Source of the DNA: Azovibrio restrictus | Lineage (GTDB): Bacteria > Bacteroidota > Bacteroidia > Chitinophagales > Chitinophagaceae | Direction: 5' to 3' | DNA length: 41,909 bases | Assembly: GCA_029255605.1 (NCBI GenBank) | Contig: JANLJF010000072.1 | Coordinates: 1-41,909, forward strand | Shown: positions 7,278 through 17,634 of the stretch, one piece after another | How the letters are laid out: each line of letters starts with the position of its first letter | Numbering within the stretch: the stretch's first letter is position 1 | Notes under the pieces: generated by a model | Told to the model about the DNA's origin: nothing | Seen by the model: only the letters and a program-made list of their open reading frames with translations | The model's database searches: none | Program-made: the position numbers and the translations under genes

Positions 7278-7532
7278 GTGAAAAAAATATATACACTTTC
7301 CGTATTTGCCCTTTTAGCTGCTGCAGGTCTCACTTCTTGCCAGAAAGATTATACCTGCTCTTGCGATATTAAATATGTAGTGAATGGCAAAGTAGAAGCC
7401 AGTACTACATCTCGCAATAATATTACTGCTACTACGGAAGATAATGCCAAAAACGATTGCAAGTATTACGAAACAGAAGAAGATTACCTGGGCCGTATGG
7501 CGGTGGTACAACACTACTGCGGTATTGAGTAG
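7278..7532 (+). CDS. Small CxC-pattern lipoprotein (paralogue 1)
   Basis: An 84-residue precursor. A GTG start gives MKKIYTLSVFALLAAAGLTSC, a lipoprotein signal peptide with lipobox LTSC (Cys21); a GTG two codons upstream is an alternative. The mature part begins CQKDYTCSC and has two further cysteines (NDC, and HYC near the end), so four cysteines besides the lipid-bearing one. The function is unknown. The same pattern recurs at 7620 and 17407 in this window. The gene has its own terminator, so it is probably monocistronic. Export to the periplasm or outer membrane is inferred from the signal peptide. Confidence 0.8.
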   Translation: MKKIYTLSVFALLAAAGLTSCQKDYTCSCDIKYVVNGKVEASTTSRNNITATTEDNAKNDCKYYETEEDYLGRMAVVQHYCGIE

Positions 7533-7553
7533 CCTTTCATATACAGCATTTAT

Positions 7554-7592
7554 AATATAGCCTATTGATTGTATCAATAGGCTATATTATTT
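7554..7592 (+). terminator. Hairpin terminator after the first CxC lipoprotein
   Basis: A perfect 15-bp stem (7554-7568 with 7574-7588, loop TTGTA) is followed by ATTTT. It lies 21 bp after the stop codon. Confidence 0.75.
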
Positions 7593-7619
7593 TACAGCCA
7601 TATATTAATTCACCCGCTT

Positions 7620-7871
7620 ATGAAAAACACTTTTTTAATTGCCGCTATCACCATCGTTGCATTTGCATCCTGCAAGAAAGACTATACCTGCGCCTGCAAC
7701 GCTAACTATACGGTACCAGGCTTTGCTACCGTAGATAGCTCTTTCAATATTCAGTATAAGGAGAAAAAGAAAACGGCTGAAAGCAAGTGCCAATCGAATG
7801 AAACAGAATCGAAAGTGGACTTCGGAGGCATTTCCTATACATACAAGGTTACCTGCAGCCTCAAAGACTAA
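7620..7871 (+). CDS. Small CxC-pattern lipoprotein (paralogue 2)
   Basis: An 83-residue precursor with signal peptide MKNTFLIAAITIVAFASC (lipobox FASC, Cys18). The mature N-terminus, CKKDYTCAC, is nearly the same as in the preceding gene (CQKDYTCSC). A central SKC and a C-terminal VTC complete the same cysteine order. The middle regions have diverged, so the copies are old or fast-evolving. It lies 87 bp after the first copy but is separated from it by a terminator and followed by its own. The function is unknown; four non-lipid cysteines could form two disulfides. Confidence 0.82.
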   Translation: MKNTFLIAAITIVAFASCKKDYTCACNANYTVPGFATVDSSFNIQYKEKKKTAESKCQSNETESKVDFGGISYTYKVTCSLKD

Positions 7872-7895
7872 ACGCCTGAAGCTAAATTTATACCG

Positions 7896-7920
7896 GCCCC
7901 GGTTTTGTACCGGGGCTTTT
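7896..7920 (+). terminator. Intrinsic terminator after the second CxC lipoprotein
   Basis: The 8-bp stem GCCCCGGT/ACCGGGGC with loop TTTGT is followed by TTTT. It lies 24 bp after the stop codon and directly before the alkane monooxygenase gene. Confidence 0.85.
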
Positions 7921-7936
7921 AATTAATTTTCGCAGT

Positions 7937-8968
7937 ATGAAAGCCCGTGTTTTGAAATATGCCATACCACTGCTGCTCTATTCAGGTGCATGGCGCAGCT
8001 TTACACACACGGGTTGGGTGGTTTGGATACCGGTACTGATATCCTTCGTTATCATACCTATACTGGAACTGTTCATAAAACCAAGCGAACGAAACCTGAC
8101 CGCCGACGAGGAAGAAATGGCCAGGCACGACAAGGCATACGATTGGTTGCTATACCTGGTTGTTCCGCTTCAATACGCAGCTCTATATTTTTTCCTTTCG
8201 GGCATTACAGATGCAGCACTTACCACTAGCGACCGCATAGGGCGCATCCTATCTATGGGGCTGCTATGTGGTATCATGGGCATCAATGTTGGCCATGAAT
8301 TAGGCCACCGGGTAAATAAAACAGAACAGACATTGGCACGCATGCTGCTGCTTACGTCTTTGTACATGCATTTTTTCATCGAGCACAATCGCGGGCATCA
8401 TAAACATGTAGGCACACCCCAAGATGCCAGCAGCGCCGACAGGAACGAACCACTCTATTTCTTCTGGATACGCAGTATCACAGGTGTATACAGGAAAGCA
8501 TGGCAAATATCATTTGAAGAGCAAACTAAAAAAGGCAAAAGCTTTTTGCAAAACGAAATGCTGCATTACCAACTTATCGAGCTGGCTTTTTGCCTGGGCA
8601 TCGGTTTATATTTCGGTTGGACTGTGTTGAGCTATTTTCTTATCTCCGCACTCATTGGCATACTACTGCTGGAAACCGTGAATTATATAGAACACTACGG
8701 CCTGAAGCGCAAAGAAACAAGCAACGGAAAATATGAGCGGGCTATGCCCAAACATAGCTGGAACAGCAACCACACTATTGGCCGCATTATGCTCTTCGAA
8801 CTAAGCCGTCACAGCGACCATCATTACCTGGCCAGCCGCAAGTACCAGCTACTACGCCACCACGACCATTCGCCACAACTACCTACCGGCTACCCCGGCA
8901 GTATGATACTGGCTATGCTGCCTCCGATGTGGTTTGCAGTAATGAATAAACGCATTGATAACATGTAG
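7937..8968 (+). CDS. alkB: AlkB-type alkane/fatty-acyl membrane monooxygenase
   Basis: A 343-residue integral-membrane di-iron hydroxylase. All diagnostic histidine motifs are visible: HELGHR (about 119), EHNRGHHKHVG (about 149), NYIEHYGL (about 252) and RHSDHHY (about 291), with hydrophobic helices between them. Family members hydroxylate the terminal carbon of n-alkanes using rubredoxin or ferredoxin electrons; the HYG motif and final HSDHH favour AlkB over fatty-acid desaturases. No rubredoxin or reductase gene is adjacent. In Bacteroidota the true substrate may be a fatty chain rather than an alkane. A -7-like TAATTTTC at 7924 would leave almost no leader. Confidence 0.9.
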   Translation: MKARVLKYAIPLLLYSGAWRSFTHTGWVVWIPVLISFVIIPILELFIKPSERNLTADEEEMARHDKAYDWLLYLVVPLQYAALYFFLSGITDAALTTSDRIGRILSMGLLCGIMGINVGHELGHRVNKTEQTLARMLLLTSLYMHFFIEHNRGHHKHVGTPQDASSADRNEPLYFFWIRSITGVYRKAWQISFEEQTKKGKSFLQNEMLHYQLIELAFCLGIGLYFGWTVLSYFLISALIGILLLETVNYIEHYGLKRKETSNGKYERAMPKHSWNSNHTIGRIMLFELSRHSDHHYLASRKYQLLRHHDHSPQLPTGYPGSMILAMLPPMWFAVMNKRIDNM

Positions 8969-9066
8969 CAAAAATGAGTACTGCCACCGCTACACATCGC
9001 TAACCTCGGCAGCTGCGCAAATGGCTCTAAAAGATAATACACCACCTATTTCTTAACCCAAGTCAA

Positions 9067-9096
9067 TTTCCTGCCAGTTGCGTGTCGATAGTTTTG
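9067..9096 (+). promoter_or_regulatory. Candidate promoter upstream of the orphan ORF
   Basis: TTTC (9067-9070), an 18-bp spacer and TAGTTTTG (9089-9096), the last an exact match to TAnnTTTG, lie 20 bp before the ATG at 9117. The rest of the 8969-9116 stretch shows no other feature. Confidence 0.5.
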
Positions 9097-9116
9097 CCGT
9101 ATAATCATTACGACTT

Positions 9117-9233
9117 ATGCGACTGTGGTATTTCGTCTTATATGCCATCTTTACTATTGCCTTAGAATTATGCAGCAAGCCGGTCACTACCAAAGAACCT
9201 GTGTATACTTATTACCTTGGTACAGCCTGGTAG
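9117..9233 (+). pseudogene. Short exported-type ORF (38 aa) with in-frame stop; possibly a 60-aa gene interrupted by TAG
   Basis: The ATG ORF begins MRLWYFVLYAIFTIALELCSKP, cut here as a signal-like helix with a cysteine at position 19 (not a canonical lipobox), and ends YYLGTAW at a TAG (9231-9233). The same frame continues for 21 codons (QYKAKYGYGKCSRRERTL...) to TAA at 9297-9299, exactly at the start of a terminator. A promoter-like TAGTTTTG precedes it. The coding-like continuation suggests a recent nonsense mutation (TGG to TAG) or a sequencing error; alternatively only the short form is real. No family is recognised. Confidence 0.4.
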
Positions 9234-9297
9234 CAGTACAAGGCAAAGTATGGCTATGGAAAATGTAGCAGAAGAGAACGCACCCTCATAACATTAT

Positions 9298-9322
9298 AAA
9301 AGCCCCGCTATACGGGGCTTTT
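9298..9322. terminator. Bidirectional intrinsic terminator
   Basis: A symmetrical hairpin with arms AAAAGCCCCG and CGGGGCTTTT around CTATA gives T-runs on both strands. It serves trxA on the minus strand and the orphan ORF or alkB transcript on the plus strand. Confidence 0.92.
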
Positions 9323-9347
9323 CACTTATTTCATCACCGGTAAGTAA

Positions 9348-9665
9348 TTACAGGTGTTGTTGTATTTTCTTGTCGAATACACCTTTAGGTGCAGCGCCCA
9401 CTTGTTTATCTACTACCTGGCCATTTTTGATGAACAGCACTGCAGGTATACTGGTGATACCGTAGTTGATAGAAAGGTTAGGATTCTCATCCACGTTCAC
9501 TTTACCTACATTCACTTTACCATCATACTCTTTAGCCAGGGCTTCAATGGTTGGGCCCAGGGCCAAACAAGGACCACACCATGGTGCCCAGAAATCTATT
9601 ACACTCAGTTTATCTGCGTTTAATACTTCAGCATCAAAATTTGCATCAGTGAATACAGCTGCCAT
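9348..9665 (-). CDS. trxA: Thioredoxin
   Basis: A 105-residue cytosolic thiol-disulfide reductase of normal thioredoxin length. The active site WCGPC is at residues 29-33 (FWAPWCGPC) and the cis-proline loop is TSIPA. It has no signal peptide, so it acts in the cytoplasm with thioredoxin reductase, which is not in this window. It is a single gene between a bidirectional terminator and an exact -7 element (TAAATTTG) about 32 bp before the start. Confidence 0.97.
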   Translation of the reverse strand: MAAVFTDANFDAEVLNADKLSVIDFWAPWCGPCLALGPTIEALAKEYDGKVNVGKVNVDENPNLSINYGITSIPAVLFIKNGQVVDKQVGAAPKGVFDKKIQQHL

Positions 9666-9696
9666 TTTTATTATGTTTTAAATTTTAAATTATCTA

Positions 9697-9704
9697 CAAA
9701 TTTA
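9697..9704 (-). promoter_or_regulatory. trxA -7 element
   Basis: TAAATTTG on the minus strand is an exact match to TAnnTTTG, 31 bp upstream of the trxA ATG. No good -33 TTTG was found at the usual distance. Confidence 0.5.
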
Positions 9705-9788
9705 CTATCAATATCTGACTTAGCAGCATAGAGGAGCAAAATACCACTATAGACTACCTACATACCTATAAGCTTATACTTGTTATAA

Positions 9789-12700
9789 CTAATTATTCTT
9801 TAGCTCTACAGAGTATTTCATCTTATCATTGGCAGCCAAAAACTGGAGCAGCTCATCGTTAATATCAATGCGGCCTGATGTTTTCAGTTTCGATGTTCTG
9901 CCGTCTTCTTCATCTATCACCTGTAGCTGCACATCTGTATTGCCCGGGTGCTTCTTAAAGTTATCGTGCAGGAACATTACGACATCGTGCGTTATAGCTT
10001 CCAGTGGCATCTGCAGGTGCAGCTTGCGGGTCATTATCTTGCGCACTTCATCCAGCAGTACTATACCCTGCACCTGGAACTCCATGACACCCGGCCTGAA
10101 CCTGTGTTCCTGGTACACACCGGTTATCATCAGCTTCTGCCCGTTATCTACATATTTGGCATACTCTACATAGTTCTTCTCCCAAAACACGATTTCCTGG
10201 TTGCCGGTATAGTCGTTGATGACCATCTTGCCAAACTTGCTACCCTTCTTCGTGGTCATATGCGCGGCATCGGTAATGAAGCCCGCTATACGTACCGTTC
10301 TGCCTTTATTATTCTCTATCTCATTTATCGGGGTGAAGTTGTAGTTATCTATCTCAAACTTGTAGCCATCCAGCGGGTGGGCACTCAGGTAGATGCCTAT
10401 CACTTCTTTTTCCCTGTCCAGCAGTTCGGGCAATGTCCATGTATCGCATTCCGGTATGGCCGGTGGTTTAATGTCCGGCATCACCGCATCGCCAAATAGG
10501 CTGTTGCTGGCCATAGAGCTGCTGGCCTGCACCTGGTTGCCAAAGCGCACCAGGCGTTCCATACCCGTTACAGGGTCGGTAGGCGGAGCGAAAAAATACT
10601 GTGCGCGGTGCATCTCTTTAAAACCATCCATGGCACCTGCCAGCACCAGGCTTTCCAGCGACTTCTTGTTTACAGTACGTTGATTCACGCGCGATATAAA
10701 ATCGAACACAGTAGTGTAGGGCCCATTCGCTTCACGCTCTGCTATAACATCTTCTACTGCCGCTTCACCCACACCCTTAATGGCATTCATACCAAAGCGA
10801 ATGACGCTCTCTTTGTTTACCGAAAAACCTTTCAGGCTCTCATTCACATCAGGCCCCAATACTGCAAGGCCCATGCGCTGGCACTCTTCCATGTAGAACT
10901 TTATCTTATCGATATTGCCCTGGTTATTGAGTACCGCCGCCATAAACTCGGCCGGGTAGTGTGCCTTCAGGTATGCTGTCTGGTATGCTACGAAGGCATA
11001 ACAGGTAGAGTGCGACTTATTGAACGCATACTGGGCAAAAGCTTCCCAGTCGGTCCATATCTTGTTCAGTTTATCTTCAGGATGGCCTTTTTTAGTAGCC
11101 CCTTCAATAAACTGGCTTTTCATTTTGTTCAGTACGGTAATCTGCTTTTTACCCATCGCCTTACGCAGTACGTCGGCATCGCCTTTACTAAAGCCTGCCA
11201 GCTTCTGCGATAGCAGCATCACCTGCTCCTGATATACCGTGATACCGTAAGTTTCTTCGAGGTACTCCTGCATATCGGGCAGGTCATATACGATCTCCTC
11301 CTCGCCATGCTTGCGTTTGATGAAGTTGGGGATGTACTCGAGCGGGCCCGGGCGATACAAGGCATTCATCGCAATAAGGTCATCAAACTTATCGGGCTTC
11401 AACTCACGCAGGTACTTTTGCATACCCGGGCTTTCAAACTGGAACGTGGCATTGGTTTCACCCCGCTGGTACAATTCGTAAGTCTTCGTATCATCCAACG
11501 GAATGCTGTCGATATCTATTTCCAGCCCATAGTTGCGCCTTATAAGCTCCAGTGCATCTTTGATGATGGTAAGGGTTTTCAATCCCAAAAAGTCCATCTT
11601 GATAACACCGGCATTTTCAATGACGTTACCCTCAAACTGGGTTATCAACAGTTCCACATCCTTTACAGATGATACCGGTATCAGCTCTGTAAGGTCCTTA
11701 GGGGCAATGATGATACCCGCTGCGTGGATACCTGTATTACGAACAGAGCCTTCCAGTTTTTCGGCAGAGCGTAATACATCACCATGCAGGGTTTTGCTCG
11801 CGTATATCTCGCGTATCTTATTTACGTTCTCTATCTCTTCGCCACCCAAGCCTTCTTTACTTTCCAGGCTCTTCTCGCCTTTTATCGGCGCATGTAATAT
11901 GCGCTTTAGCTCTATACCCGGGCGTTCCGGCACCAGCTTTGCCAGTGCGTTGGAATCGGGCAAGGGCAGATCGAGCGCACGGGCTACGTCTTTGATGCTC
12001 ATTTTGGCCGCCATGGTACCATAGGTAACAATGTGCGCCACCTGGTTTTTACCGTACTTATTCACTACGTAGTCTATCACCTTCTGGCGGCCTACATCGT
12101 CAAAGTCGGTATCTATATCGGGCATGCTCTTACGTTCCGGGTTCAGGAAACGCTCGAACAGGAGTTTATATTTAATAGGGTCGATATTGGTAATGCCGAT
12201 GCAATAGGCCACCACCGAACCCGCTGCCGAACCACGGCCCGGCCCTACGAATACCCCAAGATCGCGGCCAGCCTTAATGAAGTCGGACACGATGAGGAAG
12301 TAACCCGCGAAACCCATCGTTTTGATGGTAAACAGCTCAAAGCGCAGGCGCTCGTCTATTTCGGGTGTTATGTCAACATACCTACGCTTGGCACCTTCCC
12401 AAGTCAGGTGTTCCAGGTAGGCATCCTGGTCGTCATGAAACTCCGGCGGCACCTTGAAGTGAGGCAGCAATATCTCGCGCTCCAGCTTCATAGGTTTTAT
12501 CTTATCTACTATCAGCCCTGTATTATCTATTGCCTCCGGTATATCACTGAAGAGTTTTGTCATCTCTTCAGTAGTCTTGAAGTAGAACTGATCGTTATAG
12601 AAAGCAAAGCGGGTATCCTTCGGCTTTGCTTCATCATCGTCAGAAAACTCTTTATTGGTAGGCGTAGTTTGCTTTTCGCCGGTATTGATGCAAAGCAGGA

Positions 12701-13454
12701 TATCGTGCGCGTTGGCGTCTTCCTGTTCCACATAGTGCGAATCATTTGATGCTATGATAGGCACATTATACTTTCGGGCAAACTTCAGCAACACTTCATT
12801 CACCTTTATCTGCTCCGGTATATCGTGGCGCTGCATTTCCACATAGTAGTCTTCGCCAAACAGGTCGAGCCACCATTTAAACACCTTCTCCCCTTCTTCT
12901 TCCCCCTTACGGAGTATGGTGCGCGGCACCTGTGCACCCAGGCAACAGGTAGTGGCTATCAGCCCCTCGTGATACTGCAATACCAATTCCTTATCGATAC
13001 GTGGGTATTTACCATACAGGCCTTCCATATAGCCCAGCGAGCAGAGCTTTACCAGGTTGCGGTAGCCTACTTCATTTTTGGCCAGGAACAGCTGGTGATA
13101 CCGGGCATCTTTCTCATCGCGGGAGAACTGGCGTTTCAACCTGTTTTCTACCAGGTAGAACTCGCAGCCAACAACGGGCTTTACTACCGGCTCCAGTATG
13201 TCTTTACCTTCGGGCGTGGTGCCCACAACCTTGGTTTTCTTCCATGCCTCGGCTACAAACTGGAACACACCAAACATATTGCCGTGGTCGGTGATAGCCA
13301 TAGCGGGCATCTCGTCTTTTGCGGCCTTATCGTATAGCCTGCCGATGGACGATGCACCGTCTAACAAAGAAAACTGCGTATGGTTGTGTAAATGCGAAAA
13401 CTTCACCCTGTACCTCTCTGAATTTGCCTGATTAAAATACCCCGAACGGGACAT
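9789..13454 (-). CDS. dnaE: DNA polymerase III alpha subunit
   Basis: A 1221-residue replicative polymerase. The N-terminal PHP domain shows FSHLHNHTQFSLLDGA (about 19-34). The polymerase core has GPGRGSAAGSVVAY and the catalytic aspartates of PDIDTDF (about residues 446-452), then the helix-hairpin-helix region (GMNAIKGVGEAAV) and a C-terminal OB fold (GRTVRIAGFITDA). Length and order are those of DnaE type 1. The ATG at 13454 adds 16 residues before the conserved start; a GTG at 13406 (VKFSHLHNH) is an alternative, because a -7-like element ends only 1 bp before the ATG. It is transcribed alone. Confidence 0.97.
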   Translation of the reverse strand: MSRSGYFNQANSERYRVKFSHLHNHTQFSLLDGASSIGRLYDKAAKDEMPAMAITDHGNMFGVFQFVAEAWKKTKVVGTTPEGKDILEPVVKPVVGCEFYLVENRLKRQFSRDEKDARYHQLFLAKNEVGYRNLVKLCSLGYMEGLYGKYPRIDKELVLQYHEGLIATTCCLGAQVPRTILRKGEEEGEKVFKWWLDLFGEDYYVEMQRHDIPEQIKVNEVLLKFARKYNVPIIASNDSHYVEQEDANAHDILLCINTGEKQTTPTNKEFSDDDEAKPKDTRFAFYNDQFYFKTTEEMTKLFSDIPEAIDNTGLIVDKIKPMKLEREILLPHFKVPPEFHDDQDAYLEHLTWEGAKRRYVDITPEIDERLRFELFTIKTMGFAGYFLIVSDFIKAGRDLGVFVGPGRGSAAGSVVAYCIGITNIDPIKYKLLFERFLNPERKSMPDIDTDFDDVGRQKVIDYVVNKYGKNQVAHIVTYGTMAAKMSIKDVARALDLPLPDSNALAKLVPERPGIELKRILHAPIKGEKSLESKEGLGGEEIENVNKIREIYASKTLHGDVLRSAEKLEGSVRNTGIHAAGIIIAPKDLTELIPVSSVKDVELLITQFEGNVIENAGVIKMDFLGLKTLTIIKDALELIRRNYGLEIDIDSIPLDDTKTYELYQRGETNATFQFESPGMQKYLRELKPDKFDDLIAMNALYRPGPLEYIPNFIKRKHGEEEIVYDLPDMQEYLEETYGITVYQEQVMLLSQKLAGFSKGDADVLRKAMGKKQITVLNKMKSQFIEGATKKGHPEDKLNKIWTDWEAFAQYAFNKSHSTCYAFVAYQTAYLKAHYPAEFMAAVLNNQGNIDKIKFYMEECQRMGLAVLGPDVNESLKGFSVNKESVIRFGMNAIKGVGEAAVEDVIAEREANGPYTTVFDFISRVNQRTVNKKSLESLVLAGAMDGFKEMHRAQYFFAPPTDPVTGMERLVRFGNQVQASSSMASNSLFGDAVMPDIKPPAIPECDTWTLPELLDREKEVIGIYLSAHPLDGYKFEIDNYNFTPINEIENNKGRTVRIAGFITDAAHMTTKKGSKFGKMVINDYTGNQEIVFWEKNYVEYAKYVDNGQKLMITGVYQEHRFRPGVMEFQVQGIVLLDEVRKIMTRKLHLQMPLEAITHDVVMFLHDNFKKHPGNTDVQLQVIDEEDGRTSKLKTSGRIDINDELLQFLAANDKMKYSVELKNN

Positions 13455-13455
13455 A

Positions 13456-13463
13456 CAAAATAA
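13456..13463 (-). promoter_or_regulatory. Candidate -7 element of dnaE
   Basis: TTATTTTG on the minus strand matches TAnnTTTG at seven of eight positions. It is immediately upstream of the annotated ATG, so transcription from it would begin at or inside that codon and favour the downstream GTG start. Confidence 0.35.
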
Positions 13464-13703
13464 CGAAAAAGCGGCGGGCTAACCCGTTATGGTTATCCAC
13501 AAAACCTGAATAAAAACCGTCAACATATACACATTTTCATAATTGTTCCAGTTTGTTCCGATTTCAGAGTTTTGATTTTGGAACATTCCGGGGAGAATGT
13601 TGTGTTTTGTTGTGAAATGTTGCATTTTTCTACCTCATATGTTCTCATAACCTTTTCATACCTGCCAAAGAACTACTACTACAAATTTACAATAATTATA
13701 AAT
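13464..13703. promoter_or_regulatory. dnaE upstream region with DnaA-box and dyad motifs
   Basis: This AT-rich gene-free stretch holds TTATCCACA (13493-13501), identical to the consensus DnaA box; two GTTCC copies one helical turn apart (13545-13549, 13555-13559); GGAAC at 13580-13584; and a 7-bp inverted repeat AACATTC/GAATGTT (13582-13588, 13595-13601). No coding potential is convincing. A regulatory role is inferred only from the motif cluster. Confidence 0.4.
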
Positions 13704-13705
13704 AA

Positions 13706-13730
13706 AAAGAGGAGCCTTGTGCTCCTCTTT
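13706..13730 (-). terminator. Terminator of the T9SS cargo gene
   Basis: A perfect 10-bp stem AAAGAGGAGC/GCTCCTCTTT with a 5-nt loop, followed on the minus strand by TTATTTAT. It lies 21 bp beyond the stop codon. Confidence 0.85.
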
Positions 13731-13750
13731 CTCAATATTCATTTAAAACC

Positions 13751-16351
13751 CTAATGATTCACTGTCAGCTTACCTGATGTTGCCTGTCCGTTTATGTAAT
13801 ATTTATAAACATACATACCTGATGGCAGTGACGAAACATTTACATTATATAGTTGTGCTCCGGATACTTGCTGCTCATTAATCAGGTCCATTACCTTCTG
13901 GCCCCTAACATCGAAAAGCTCTGCACTGACCCTGGCATTATTTACGCCAGACAGATTGATACGTACATAATCGGATGCGGGATTAGGATATATTTCGAAT
14001 GCTGGTTGGTTATCCATTTCCGGTACACCCGTAGTACCTTCCTTACAGCCAGAATAATGATTCCTGAAGAAGCCAGCAATAGACTGTGTATCGCAACTGT
14101 TTTTAACGAAAACCTCTACTTCTATATAATGATCAGGACGCGCATTGAAGTATGTTACTGCCGGGAAGAAGGACATACCGCAATTTTGCCACATATAGTC
14201 TGTAAGCGATTTAGTGATATTGCTCACATTACAGCCAGTAGAACAAGTAGTTGTCGTTAATGGTGTAATTACGGATGGTGTACCGCTACATGAGGTGCCA
14301 TAATCTTTTATAATAAACCAATACTCGTCAAAGTCAGACGTAGATGTATTGATATAAATAATAGGTGTATTGCCGCAAGCATCAATAGCTGTTGAACATG
14401 CAGTACCCGGAGTGGCGTAAGTGGCACCAGAAGATGTTGTACTTACCTGCCAGCCAGCCAATCGTGGGCTCCATATATTTGTTTCTACATAGGCACTCTT
14501 AGTATCAGAAGATGTACCATTACATGTATTGAATACCTGCAGGCTTATCTTAAAATATTTGCCTTCTGCTGCATATTGCCCTAATATACCACTACCCCAT
14601 GTCTGCATATTTACACTGGTTAATGGACCGGTAGTAATAGGACCTTGCTCATAGATACCTGAAATATCATTGCCGCAGTTATCTACTTCGTCTACTGTAA
14701 TACGATAACTCTGTACGGCTGTTAATGGTACATCCGGCGTTAAAACAAATGATTGTGTAGGACATCCTGTAACTATTTGGTGGGGGCTACATTGAGCCGG
14801 AAGCCTTGTCTGTGCATTTATTTTAAAATCAGCATTCCTGTTTGTCCAATCGAATTTGATATTGGCCGTTACTTCATAAGACTGATCGCAGGTGGTAACG
14901 TAATAGATAACTTTAAAATACTTGCCGGCTACATTGTAAGTGCCATTGAAGAGCTGCGGAGCATATGTTTTTAAATCTAACTGGTACAAGTCTGTGCTGC
15001 TCATCACCGGTGCAGAGGGCAGATATATACCACCGGGAATAACATTTCCGCAGGCATCTGTTTCCTGCAGTACAACACTCCAGTATCCCTGCCATGTACG
15101 TGCCTGTGTAGGGTAAAACATAAGCGTGCTGCAATCAGTGATACTTTGATAAGAGCATGGTGTCGTAACCCTTGGAACATTATTTATGGTAAAGTTTGGA
15201 TTGAAATCGTAATAGGCACTATTATCATCCCCATCTATCTGATTGTTGATATAGAAATTGTGAGTACCATTATAAGTGGCAGCACTTTTTACAGTTGTTA
15301 CACCGTTCAATAAGGGGGTAGGTACTGCGCCTGTACCACTGGCAGGATCGAAATAGCATAGAACGCCGGGGCCGGTTACAATAAAATAAGGCGTAGTTTG
15401 ATGCGCGCACAAATACATTTTACCATCCTGGCCTCTTTCTATCTCTGTAAAATTGAACATGGCCTTGCTACCATAGCTAATGGGGTTGAATGTACCGGCC
15501 GATACATCATAATAGCCAATACCACCATTATCGCCACCGCTATAGTAATAATAGCTGAGCCAAAAGTCGCCAGATACAGGATCATATTCCAATCCTTCTA
15601 CCTGGTTGATGGCCCCTGAAGTAGTACCAAGTGAGAATGCTGTGAATGAATAGCTACTAAGATCGCAGAGCGAAACCTGGTTATTATTGCCATTGGGATA
15701 GTATAATGTAGAGCCATCGGGTGTGATCTCCATAAGCTGCACATTTCCCCGGATACCGGGTGCAGATGTAGAAACTGTAGTTGGAGAAGAACCTGTACTA
15801 GTGCCATTATTATAGAATGTATGACGCTTTAATACGCCCCCTTCCAGTGTATATACATTTCTATTTCCATTTGATTCCAGCGGAGCTGCTACTATACCAA
15901 ACTGATAATAAGAAACACTTGAATTGGTGTATAAGGTAGTTGCCGATGTAACTGAAGGACTTGAGTAGGTACTTACCTCCAGCCGCACCAAGCTATTAGA
16001 CTGCCAGTACATTACGTAATACGTAAAGCAGTCTCCGATTTTGGGAAAAATCTCAATCTCACTATTTACACCGCCAATGGTATAAAACAAAGTGCCGGAA
16101 GCATCGTACAGACCATAGCCGTTAGCCGAAAACAGTAAAGAACTGTGATAATAAACGGAGTTCACGTAATCTCTTAACGTATTGGGGTAAGCTTGCGGGG
16201 AGAGATTCGTAAGACCTTGTGTACTGGTATTGAGTGTTAAACCACTACTGGTAGATTGAAAAACGGACCAGTATTTGGCATAGCCATAGCTAAAATACTG
16301 GGTGAGCAATAGCATAGCTGTTAGCAACAGCTTGTGTTGTGTTGTCTTCAT
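13751..16351 (-). CDS. Secreted T9SS cargo protein with beta-propeller-like N-terminus and Cys-containing repeats
   Basis: An 866-residue protein with signal peptide MKTTQHKLLLTAMLLLTQYF (continuing SYGYA). Residues ~26-390 are Ser/Thr/Tyr/Gly-rich with blade-like strands (LEYDPVSGDFWLSYY, LMEITPDGSTLYYPNG), suggesting a beta-propeller. Residues ~395-780 hold three diverged ~125-residue units built around aromatic strands and cysteines (ETDACGN..AGKYFKVIYYVTTCD; EVDNCGN..EGKYFKISLQVFNTCN; ..HYIEVEVFVKNSCD). The last ~80 residues are a type A T9SS sorting domain (FEIYPNPASDYVRI, LFDVRGQKV, LPSGMYVYKY). It is therefore exported and probably surface-anchored or released; the ligand is unknown. 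It is monocistronic, with -7-like TATTTTCG at 16387-16394. Confidence 0.85.
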   Translation of the reverse strand: MKTTQHKLLLTAMLLLTQYFSYGYAKYWSVFQSTSSGLTLNTSTQGLTNLSPQAYPNTLRDYVNSVYYHSSLLFSANGYGLYDASGTLFYTIGGVNSEIEIFPKIGDCFTYYVMYWQSNSLVRLEVSTYSSPSVTSATTLYTNSSVSYYQFGIVAAPLESNGNRNVYTLEGGVLKRHTFYNNGTSTGSSPTTVSTSAPGIRGNVQLMEITPDGSTLYYPNGNNNQVSLCDLSSYSFTAFSLGTTSGAINQVEGLEYDPVSGDFWLSYYYYSGGDNGGIGYYDVSAGTFNPISYGSKAMFNFTEIERGQDGKMYLCAHQTTPYFIVTGPGVLCYFDPASGTGAVPTPLLNGVTTVKSAATYNGTHNFYINNQIDGDDNSAYYDFNPNFTINNVPRVTTPCSYQSITDCSTLMFYPTQARTWQGYWSVVLQETDACGNVIPGGIYLPSAPVMSSTDLYQLDLKTYAPQLFNGTYNVAGKYFKVIYYVTTCDQSYEVTANIKFDWTNRNADFKINAQTRLPAQCSPHQIVTGCPTQSFVLTPDVPLTAVQSYRITVDEVDNCGNDISGIYEQGPITTGPLTSVNMQTWGSGILGQYAAEGKYFKISLQVFNTCNGTSSDTKSAYVETNIWSPRLAGWQVSTTSSGATYATPGTACSTAIDACGNTPIIYINTSTSDFDEYWFIIKDYGTSCSGTPSVITPLTTTTCSTGCNVSNITKSLTDYMWQNCGMSFFPAVTYFNARPDHYIEVEVFVKNSCDTQSIAGFFRNHYSGCKEGTTGVPEMDNQPAFEIYPNPASDYVRINLSGVNNARVSAELFDVRGQKVMDLINEQQVSGAQLYNVNVSSLPSGMYVYKYYINGQATSGKLTVNH

Positions 16352-16386
16352 TGGATATATGTTTTAAGGTGAAAAAAGAAACTAAC

Positions 16387-16394
16387 CGAAAATA
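16387..16394 (-). promoter_or_regulatory. Candidate -7 element of the T9SS cargo gene
   Basis: TATTTTCG (TAnnTTTG with one change) lies 36 bp upstream of the ATG. The remaining gap up to 16581 shows no gene. Confidence 0.35.
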
Positions 16395-16581
16395 TGCGGG
16401 TGGGTTATTTTTCTAAAATAAGTTTGCGATGCTGAATGGTGCCAACGAATGGAGGACACCCTGGAAGGTGATGTTTTCTGTTTCATGGTTTTGGTGGTTA
16501 GGTGATATAAACTCTATACGAATATACATACTAACAACCAAATAAAAACCAACTCAAACAAAAAATCTTTGTCAATAAAAA

Positions 16582-16608
16582 AGAGCGATACAATATTTGT
16601 ATCGCTCT
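16582..16608 (-). terminator. Terminator of the lipoprotein gene at 16631
   Basis: A perfect 12-bp stem (AGAGCGATACAA with TTGTATCGCTCT, loop TAT) is followed on the minus strand by TTTTTTATT. It lies 22 bp after the stop codon. Confidence 0.9.
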
Positions 16609-16630
16609 AGATTACGGTCTGTTCAACAGC

Positions 16631-17305
16631 TTATTGCAGTGTAGTATATGTATACGTAACCAGGGTTACTTTCATTTTACCGTCTTTGCCATGGTCTTTA
16701 TTTTCCAACGGCAGTTCTTTAATGCGCTTTAATTCCACCGTTACCCATTCAGGCGATATCTCACTAAGCTCGTAAGGGGTGAAATAAACGCTATCGCCCG
16801 TAAATTCCTTGGTTTCCCTTACCAGGTTGGGGCCTGATATGATGGTGGCTACTAGTTTCTCGTTTTCCTGCAACGGGTCGCCCGCCCATTTGAACCCTAA
16901 GCCTTCTGATTTTGGCATAAACTCAGGGTATACTGTTGTAATATTTATATCACCTATTTCAGCACGGCGTACCGTATTGCTAATGGTACCGCCATAGTTT
17001 TTGGTGAGTATGAAATTTACATCTGATGTGCCCGGAAAATCCCAATAGTAGCGGGTAATGTCTTCAGTAGTAGTATTAGCTATTTTAGTGTTGGCTTTTA
17101 CATTTGCGGTGCCCTTCAGTTCTACCTTACGGCCGGTAGCGTCGTTTTCGCGGAATGTGGCGTATGCCCTCGTTTCGGCATTCACTTTATTATACTCTAC
17201 CTCGTACAACTGATAGTAATTTTTGTCACTTTCCAGGTCGTCATTTTTTTTGCAGCCCAATGCCAGCAGCACGGGCATCAAAAGGATGGGTACATATTTT
17301 TTCAT
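16631..17305 (-). CDS. Lipoprotein of unknown function
   Basis: A 224-residue precursor beginning MKKYVPILLMPVLLALGC, a lipoprotein signal with lipobox ALGC (Cys18), then a KKNDDLESDK linker. The mature part is beta-rich and contains phrases such as AYATFRENDATGRKVELKG and YYWDFPGTSDVNFILTKNYGG, without a recognised domain; an immunoglobulin-like fold is possible but not shown. It is monocistronic, ended by a strong terminator, and divergent from the third CxC lipoprotein with a 101-bp shared upstream region. A -7-like CATATTTG occurs in that region. Confidence 0.8.
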   Translation of the reverse strand: MKKYVPILLMPVLLALGCKKNDDLESDKNYYQLYEVEYNKVNAETRAYATFRENDATGRKVELKGTANVKANTKIANTTTEDITRYYWDFPGTSDVNFILTKNYGGTISNTVRRAEIGDINITTVYPEFMPKSEGLGFKWAGDPLQENEKLVATIISGPNLVRETKEFTGDSVYFTPYELSEISPEWVTVELKRIKELPLENKDHGKDGKMKVTLVTYTYTTLQ

Positions 17306-17406
17306 AACATATAGAGGATTAGCCGATTAAAGTACAAATATGCTGCCAAAGCTTTCGTTTTGTGAACACACAGGAAAGCGGCATATTATTTGTTCTGCAA
17401 AAGTAT

Positions 17407-17634
17407 ATGAGAACTACTGCTATGAGAAGAACTGCCGTCTTATTAACAAGCGCTTTACTAACGGTACTCTCTTTCTCTTCCTGCCAAAAGGAAAGCTTCA
17501 TCTGTGAATGCTCGGGTGGCATTAGTGGCGGTAGCTATCAATACCAGATAAACCATTCGAACCGCGAAGCAGCGAAGGAACAATGCTATAAAGACCCTGT
17601 AGGCCCGGATTCTGAAACCTGCAGGCTGCAATAA
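17407..17634 (+). CDS. Small CxC-pattern lipoprotein (paralogue 3)
   Basis: A 75-residue precursor (70 if the ATG at 17422 is used). The signal peptide MRRTAVLLTSALLTVLSFSSC ends in lipobox FSSC. The mature part starts CQKESFICEC, the same lipid-Cys plus CxC layout as the proteins at 7278 and 7620, with later cysteines at KEQC and ETC in the same order and an alanine/lysine-rich stretch before the third cysteine (REAAKEQC). It ends 3 bp before the convergent pabB stop. The function is unknown. An upstream TATTATTTG is a one-base-long variant of the -7 motif. Confidence 0.75.
   Translation: MRTTAMRRTAVLLTSALLTVLSFSSCQKESFICECSGGISGGSYQYQINHSNREAAKEQCYKDPVGPDSETCRLQ

Follow-up and report, generated by a model that had tools for sequence, protein, structure and literature searches.

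Here, we describe a family of small, multi-copy bacterial lipoproteins with five conserved cysteines and its association with a gene that encodes a MauE domain fused to a thioredoxin-like domain. Three members of the family, named A, B and C (Table 1), are encoded on a stretch of 41,909 nucleotides (contig JANLJF010000072.1 of assembly GCA_029255605.1, Azovibrio restrictus, placed by GTDB in the Chitinophagaceae within the Bacteroidota), which is called the window throughout. The link of these lipoproteins to the downstream MauE–thioredoxin fusion is new. Within one taxonomic family a maturation link between both partners is well supported by genomics, and the lipoproteins, as two-disulfide proteins, are probably clients of the fusion protein acting as oxidoreductase. 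The lipoprotein family with its conserved cysteines, the fold prediction, the gene adjacency, the co-occurrence and the lack, in this genome, of any match to DsbB or VKOR were computed directly. A partial MauE–thioredoxin gene is also the first gene of the window; although central to the finding, it was missing from the preliminary description of this DNA.

The lipoprotein family

In the preliminary description three short genes of the window were proposed to encode lipoproteins that share a CxC cysteine pattern. This is borne out at the positions given in Table 1. A profile was built from the mature parts of 42 relatives, without the three window proteins and without two orthologues from a neighbouring species (L003; loci and genomes are given by L and G numbers). 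Searched against every frame of the window from 30 codons upwards, it ranks exactly B, A and C on top (E 5.4e-12, 8.5e-7 and 2.8e-4), followed by a next-best frame at E 1.6, and a chance pattern is thereby ruled out. Protein B as single query retrieves protein A (E 1e-5) as well as five more loci in this genome (E 2e-7 to 2e-3), and does not match protein C at E≤1. C is thus the most divergent of the three, yet a member of the family. In all three the lipobox cysteine is followed by QKD, KKD or QKE and, at +6 or +7, by CxC; the third cysteine comes after an alanine-containing stretch (AKND, AESK or AKEQ) and the last one, near the C-terminus, has three or four residues behind it.

Typical members show a signal peptide, the motif S-C-K-K-D-Y-T-C-x-C, a variable loop, the motif K-x-x-K-x-D-A-x-x-x-C and a last cysteine usually two to four residues from the end (consensus derived from members in this genome and in named contigs). 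Among 156 distinct profile matches CxC and the third cysteine are found in every one, and all five cysteines are aligned in 147. The other nine were read over their full frames, and eight of them proved to hold all five, cut only by the alignment, so that lipid cysteine, CxC, third and last cysteine are all present in 155 of the 156. As the first search pattern demanded the lipid cysteine and CxC, the independent evidence for conservation comes from the third and the last cysteine. Natural cysteine-loss variants that inform on disulfide pairing were not found in this set, L060:1122-1331 being the only member that lacks the last cysteine. This frame and one from L003 judged spurious are omitted from the mature alignments, and the 50 remaining candidates range in mature length from 39 residues (L028, L031) to 104 (L007). 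The two shortest forms (L028:1501-1677 and L031:1462-1638, same genome) keep the lipid cysteine, CxC, the third and the last cysteine.

The family is real and has no named model in the libraries searched. Pfam and NCBIfam give no match at cut-off for the three window proteins; for a wider set of 17 members the best results, known as E-values only, are 0.009 (Pfam) and 0.00086 (NCBIfam). The latter belongs to the PG1828 family lipoprotein (NF050142), which is weakly matched by 11 of the 17 members (best E 0.00086); protein B reaches 17 bits against 50, and this over residues 1-24 only, essentially signal peptide and lipobox. A PDB sequence search with the lipoprotein profile remained empty, and the top-ranked open PubMed Central matches contained no paper on the lipoprotein family or on MauE–thioredoxin fusions.

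The MauE–thioredoxin fusion and its association with the lipoproteins

While the neighbourhoods of the lipoprotein genes were read, a protein of about 310 residues was noticed downstream of several of them. It starts with a MauE domain that passes the PF07291 gathering cut-off (84.8, 77.3, 82.7 and 74.8 bits versus 27 in four copies) and continues with a thioredoxin-like half. In 15 aligned fusions C-G-C-F-G of the MauE part and C-x-H-C of the second half are invariant; two more distant copies retain CGC, but in the form CGCMG. The active-site motif reads CPHC in 12 of the 15 and CSHC or CHHC in the others. In spite of the general presence of C-x-H-C, the Pfam thioredoxin and DSBA scores of the C-terminal half remain below cut-off, and its PDB matches are weak (glutaredoxin, Eps1p, ResA). 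At L141:3771-4741 the gene is split across two overlapping frames, and one of the pieces is read with three internal stop codons (TGA once, TAA twice).

Altogether 81 loci were read, which had been chosen by lipoprotein matches (L109-L119 before the partner was noticed). A member is recognized by pattern in 78 of them; L120, L121 and L162 show none although the profile placed one there. The MauE–thioredoxin gene is the commonest directly downstream gene (23 of the 78 loci). Lipoprotein and enzyme lie on the same strand in 35/35 pairs, with nearest gaps between a 16-base overlap and 341 bases, and no enzyme gene was found upstream or on the opposite strand within 1 kb of a lipoprotein. What flanks the pair differs between loci: the upstream neighbours fall into 12 clusters, some of them perhaps false frames. 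Seen from the enzyme side, a lipoprotein is located directly upstream of 19 of 26 MauE–thioredoxin genes in 16 chosen genomes (17 by pattern, two by coordinates), and the other seven have none directly upstream or are not judgeable. At L198, L199 and L211 the enzyme frame was not recognized (no CGCFG), L198 and L199 being judged non-adjacent from coordinates. In the taxonomic-family sample at least 27 of 86 strong enzyme rows (E below 1e-78, eight weaker rows omitted) have a lipoprotein directly upstream, the lipoprotein side consisting of 31 entered rows spotted near the enzyme or needed for comparison. The second fusion of this genome starts 47 bases after a fourth paralogue (L019).

The same association is seen across genomes. 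As the preliminary description had expected, the lipoproteins recur in other genomes and in multiple copies: among 294 genomes sampled from the taxonomic family, this one included, 69 have matches to the mature profile (E≤0.001), with 1-19 copies each, and these represent 23 of 101 genera. The fusion (E≤1e-30) is likewise present in 69 of these 294 genomes; both occur together in 68, and all 23 lipoprotein genera possess it. Two genomes deviate: G512 (87% complete, 520 contigs) has lipoproteins, but nothing closer to the enzyme than a distant MauE match (8.4e-16), and G591 lacks the lipoprotein, although one of its longer frames matches the enzyme weakly (4.7e-35). Per genome there are one or two enzyme matches versus up to 19 lipoproteins; genomes without lipoproteins also hold more distant MauE matches in longer frames. 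In a sample of 296 genomes across the phylum the lipoprotein (mature profile) was found in three, and these same three contain the enzyme at E<1e-80. Twelve further genomes of this sample have weaker enzyme relatives (9e-34 to 2e-55), and at the six such loci read (L236, L237 and L239-L242, thus leaving out L238 and five genomes without loci) no lipoprotein lies alongside.

Predicted fold and the role of the cysteines

For the mature part of protein B (66 residues) AlphaFold2 predicts the order strand, strand, helix, strand, strand with a predicted local distance difference test score (pLDDT) of 93.0 and a predicted template modelling score (pTM) of 0.73; for that of a paralogue (50 residues) it predicts strand, strand, helix, strand (pLDDT 94.6, pTM 0.70). 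The input alignments held 47 and 43 sequences; alignment A2 (47 rows) omits the L007 form of 104 residues as well as a near-identical copy from L009 and another from L042, and alignment A3 (43 rows) additionally omits two L003 rows, L029 and L031. One compact fold, confidently predicted for two members, agrees with the shared fold that had been postulated earlier. CxC is placed in strand 1, the third cysteine in the helix and the last one in the final strand. Since strand residues two apart face the same way, two disulfides appear sterically reasonable in the predicted fold.

Foldseek gives nothing at E≤0.001 in the PDB (two models) or in a viral library (one model). The best VIA-align matches (Z 5.3 and 5.2) are to small folds of unrelated function, among them the Dmd-like small phage fold 5hy3_B (Z 5.3, root-mean-square deviation 1.7, 44 aligned), where a Z below 8 may reflect a common arrangement only. 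Reading the function from the fold was rejected, as these matches are weak and functionally unrelated.

The preliminary description had left the choice between two disulfides and a metal site. Two disulfides fit both the predicted fold and the gene partner. A metal site would mean that a single zinc, copper or iron ion is bound by the four cysteines, which the thioredoxin-like partner would keep reduced for loading. A small domain with four conserved cysteines would suit such a function, as would the SCO1/SenC gene next downstream of one paralogue of this genome (L020). Yet a SCO1-like downstream gene appears at only one of the 78 loci among the clusters listed, the family alignment has no nearly invariant His, Asp or Glu column, and the extracytoplasmic position together with the DsbA-like CPHC motif favours disulfides. 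We therefore consider the metal site very improbable.

A putative maturation pathway and its alternatives

If the lipoproteins are clients of the fusion protein, each of them would be exported, then lipidated on its first cysteine, and would fold as a small β-β-α-β domain, in which the CxC pair (one strand, same face), the helix cysteine and the cysteine of the last strand come near enough for two disulfides. A co-evolved membrane oxidoreductase would insert or correct these disulfides. Its MauE domain with the conserved CGC may remove electrons through the membrane, which is the direction of electron flow we infer, and the fused thioredoxin-like domain, mostly with CPHC, would contact the lipoproteins. 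One or two enzymes could serve every lipoprotein copy of a genome. The lipoproteins themselves would be located on the periplasmic side of the outer membrane, and our guess is that, once folded, they are small envelope binding modules with varied surfaces.

Adjacency and co-occurrence would fit equally well with a redox relay, in which the CxC pair is redox-active, exchanging with the enzyme's CxHC and handing oxidizing or reducing power on to other envelope proteins at the outer membrane, the divergent copies having different targets. The excess of lipoproteins over enzymes, the presence of CxC in 156/156 matches and the missing DsbB and VKOR in this genome are in line with such a relay. However, the third and the last cysteine are conserved as much as CxC, which is better explained by two structural disulfides than by one active pair, and there is no confident fold match. 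A relay thus seems unlikely to us.

A broader proposal concerns the enzyme. In these bacteria the fusion might take the place of DsbB and VKOR and so represent a third type of membrane enzyme that generates disulfides, with the lipoproteins as dedicated disulfide carriers or clients that extend oxidative folding from the inner to the outer membrane via paralogues; this is conceivable but doubtful. Among 35 sampled genomes DsbB was found in none and VKOR in four (two that have the lipoprotein, G367 and G508, and two that lack it, G018 and G290), and this genome matches neither; in the control genomes DsbB is seen in six of 14 (Escherichia coli and Bacillus subtilis among them) and VKOR in three of 14. 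Because most lipoprotein-free genomes lack both enzymes too, their absence is unspecific and only leaves room for a MauE enzyme.

Several observations weigh against the lipoproteins being clients of the fusion protein. At 55 of the 78 loci, the window's three genes included, no MauE–thioredoxin gene follows directly downstream, and in the sister species G011 the counterpart of the window's fusion copy (1-750) follows a gene which we take to encode ribosomal S20, not a lipoprotein. Fisher's test for co-occurrence (8e-65 by genome, 7e-22 by genus) is uncorrected for shared ancestry. Beyond the taxonomic family the pairing is incomplete. Fifteen genomes of the order were sampled, and clear lipoproteins occur in five (G024, G025, G028, G030 and G035); among these only G025 contains a close enzyme, directly downstream of a lipoprotein, whereas G035 has a weaker match elsewhere (8.8e-52), G024 and G028 have distant MauE matches only and G030 has no enzyme match at E≤1e-10. 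In turn, G038 combines an enzyme match (4.1e-32) with a weak lipoprotein match only. Of the 15 sampled genomes taken as lipoprotein-free, 13 are without VKOR and none has DsbB. Finally, the role of MauE in disulfide formation is itself a speculation in the available part of PMC7794033, according to which it might aid disulfide formation in the β subunit of methylamine dehydrogenase.

In three contigs labelled Flavobacteriales or Flavobacteriia (L004, L006 and L010) a different, membrane-anchored CxYC thioredoxin-like protein is encoded at most 60 bases after the lipoprotein (Table 1); those of L004 and L010 are below Pfam cut-offs. These CxYC proteins are possibly a second type of partner, and the tie of the lipoproteins to a thiol-disulfide enzyme may therefore be wider than the tie to MauE.

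Known systems resemble the proposed pair in part. In Paracoccus denitrificans MauE and the thioredoxin-like MauD are connected with the small subunit of methylamine dehydrogenase, so that there, too, a MauE-family membrane protein is tied to an exported cysteine-containing protein; here, in contrast, one fused protein comprises the MauE and the thioredoxin-like part, and its supposed clients are very small lipoproteins in multiple copies. The MauE-type BT_3928 family (NF045576) is matched by all 15 aligned fusions (best E 1.5e-18), the first one over residues 24-182 but at 56 bits, where the curated cut-off is 250. With DsbA, which cooperates with DsbB or VKOR, the majority of the fusions share CPHC, a DsbA-type active-site motif, but their membrane part is MauE. 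With the fusion an unnamed multi-copy lipoprotein family gains a testable partner, which points to a possible way of extracytoplasmic disulfide formation in a group whose sampled genomes gave no DsbB and few VKOR matches. If the enzyme is lipoprotein-specific, the pair would offer a clean two-part model for MauE-type proteins.

Copy number, evolutionary rate and localization

The full-length profile gives 5-18 matches in each of 14 sampled genus-mates and 13 (E≤0.01) in this genome, but this profile spans the signal peptide, and a few of its matches may be other lipoproteins; the mature profile yields 10 in this genome at E≤0.001. In other families of the order clear members occur in five of 15 sampled genomes (full-length profile), and members are also seen in single contigs labelled Flavobacteriales, Flavobacteriia, Fluviicola and Chitinophagaceae. 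The number of 117 members found by pattern is an upper count with a few probably spurious frames (e.g., L115, L147 and L160), and the same holds for the set of 110 used below. Tandem arrays comprise up to six copies in a row (L109). In a Bacteroidota contig (L007:4001-5325) four members stand in tandem, one of them with a long Ser/Thr-rich loop (122 residues), and no MauE–thioredoxin gene lies within the stretch examined.

The preliminary description had called these lipoproteins rapidly evolving, a view which is not upheld between species: the paralogues differ widely, yet their orthologues look constrained. Compared with the sister species G011, the ratio of nonsynonymous to synonymous substitution rates (dN/dS) is 0.18 for A, 0.19 for B, 0.09 for C and 0 for the fourth paralogue; three more paralogues have 0.24, 0.15 and 0, and the adjacent enzyme has 0.09. 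The comparison genes give 0.004 (dnaE), 0.012 (ffh), 0.11 (downstream desaturase) and 0.22 (pabB-like gene). All these values rest on few changes; several antisense "flank" rows were left unused. Positive selection was not seen in this comparison of two species. The orthologues thus appear mostly less constrained than dnaE or ffh, with no sign of an arms race at this time scale. The neighbour-gene names ffh, dnaE, pabB, rpoB, ribosomal S20, DUF58, RluD and KdsA are assumed by us from the appearance of the sequences.

These rates also bear on a role in conflict or immunity, in which an array of lipoproteins would block phage receptors or neutralize toxins of competitors and the oxidoreductase would merely fold them. 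The small size, the tandem arrays and the wide divergence of paralogues would be expected of such a system, and four of the 17 members weakly resemble the Cor superinfection-exclusion profile (phrog_1119; best E 0.0032). Opposed to this are the constraint between the two species and the position of many loci next to presumably housekeeping-like genes. Furthermore, PADLOC gives no match for the 17 members, no phage record was found for protein B and no viral-contig relative for one paralogue. We regard such a role as quite improbable.

The surface signal of Capnocytophaga canimorsus, sought as K-(D/E)2 or Q-A-(D/E)2 after the lipid cysteine and requiring an acid at +4 and +5, occurs in 0/110 members. 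It is equally absent from 23 other lipoproteins of the same DNA, and as this small background set is without the signal, the test says little here. Signals differ between genera. Lysine at +3 with an acid at +4 is found in 65/110 members versus 0/23 other lipoproteins. This motif resembles the Capnocytophaga export signal, which needs two acidic residues; KD alone caused no efficient transport in C. canimorsus, according to the accessible section of PMC5080379. Surface display of the lipoproteins, among the roles suggested in the preliminary description, may occur but is, on these motifs, not favoured.

Features of the window and neighbouring genes

The genes of lipoproteins A and B are neighbours, and that of C is found about 10 kb away. 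Two terminator-like sites were found in the region, which is no clear excess over shuffled sequences (mean 1.2, standard deviation 1.1).

Table 1. Positions of the described features (in the window unless a locus is given)
Feature	Position	Strand	Remarks
Lipoprotein A	7278..7532	+	84 residues; GTG start (alternative GTG 7272); lipid Cys codon 7338; CSC; AKNDC; CGIE end
Lipoprotein B	7620..7871	+	83 residues; lipid Cys codon 7671; CAC; AESKC; CSLKD end
Lipoprotein C	17407..17634	+	75 residues (70 from second ATG 17422); lipid Cys codon 17482; CEC; AKEQC; CRLQ end
MauE–thioredoxin fusion, C-terminal 249 residues	1..750	+	CGCFG and CPHC present; truncated by contig start; PF07291 45.6 bits, cut-off 27
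Near-palindrome between genes A and B	7552..7590	no strand	92% match to own reverse complement
Terminator-like hairpin with T tail, 3' of gene B	7895..7917	+	
Small membrane-anchored CxYC thioredoxin-like protein	L004:1889-2473		directly after lipoprotein
Small membrane-anchored CxYC thioredoxin-like protein	L006:690-1310		directly after lipoprotein
Small membrane-anchored CxYC thioredoxin-like protein	L010:4254-4850		directly after lipoprotein

Directly after lipoprotein B the window encodes a fatty-acid-desaturase family protein (7937-8968; PF00487, 95.8 bits), whose neighbour cluster recurs in two genus-mates (L113 and L115). Divergently oriented to lipoprotein C there is a lipoprotein-like protein of 224 residues (16631-17305) with no Pfam match at E≤0.01; a counterpart occupies the same position in two genus-mates.

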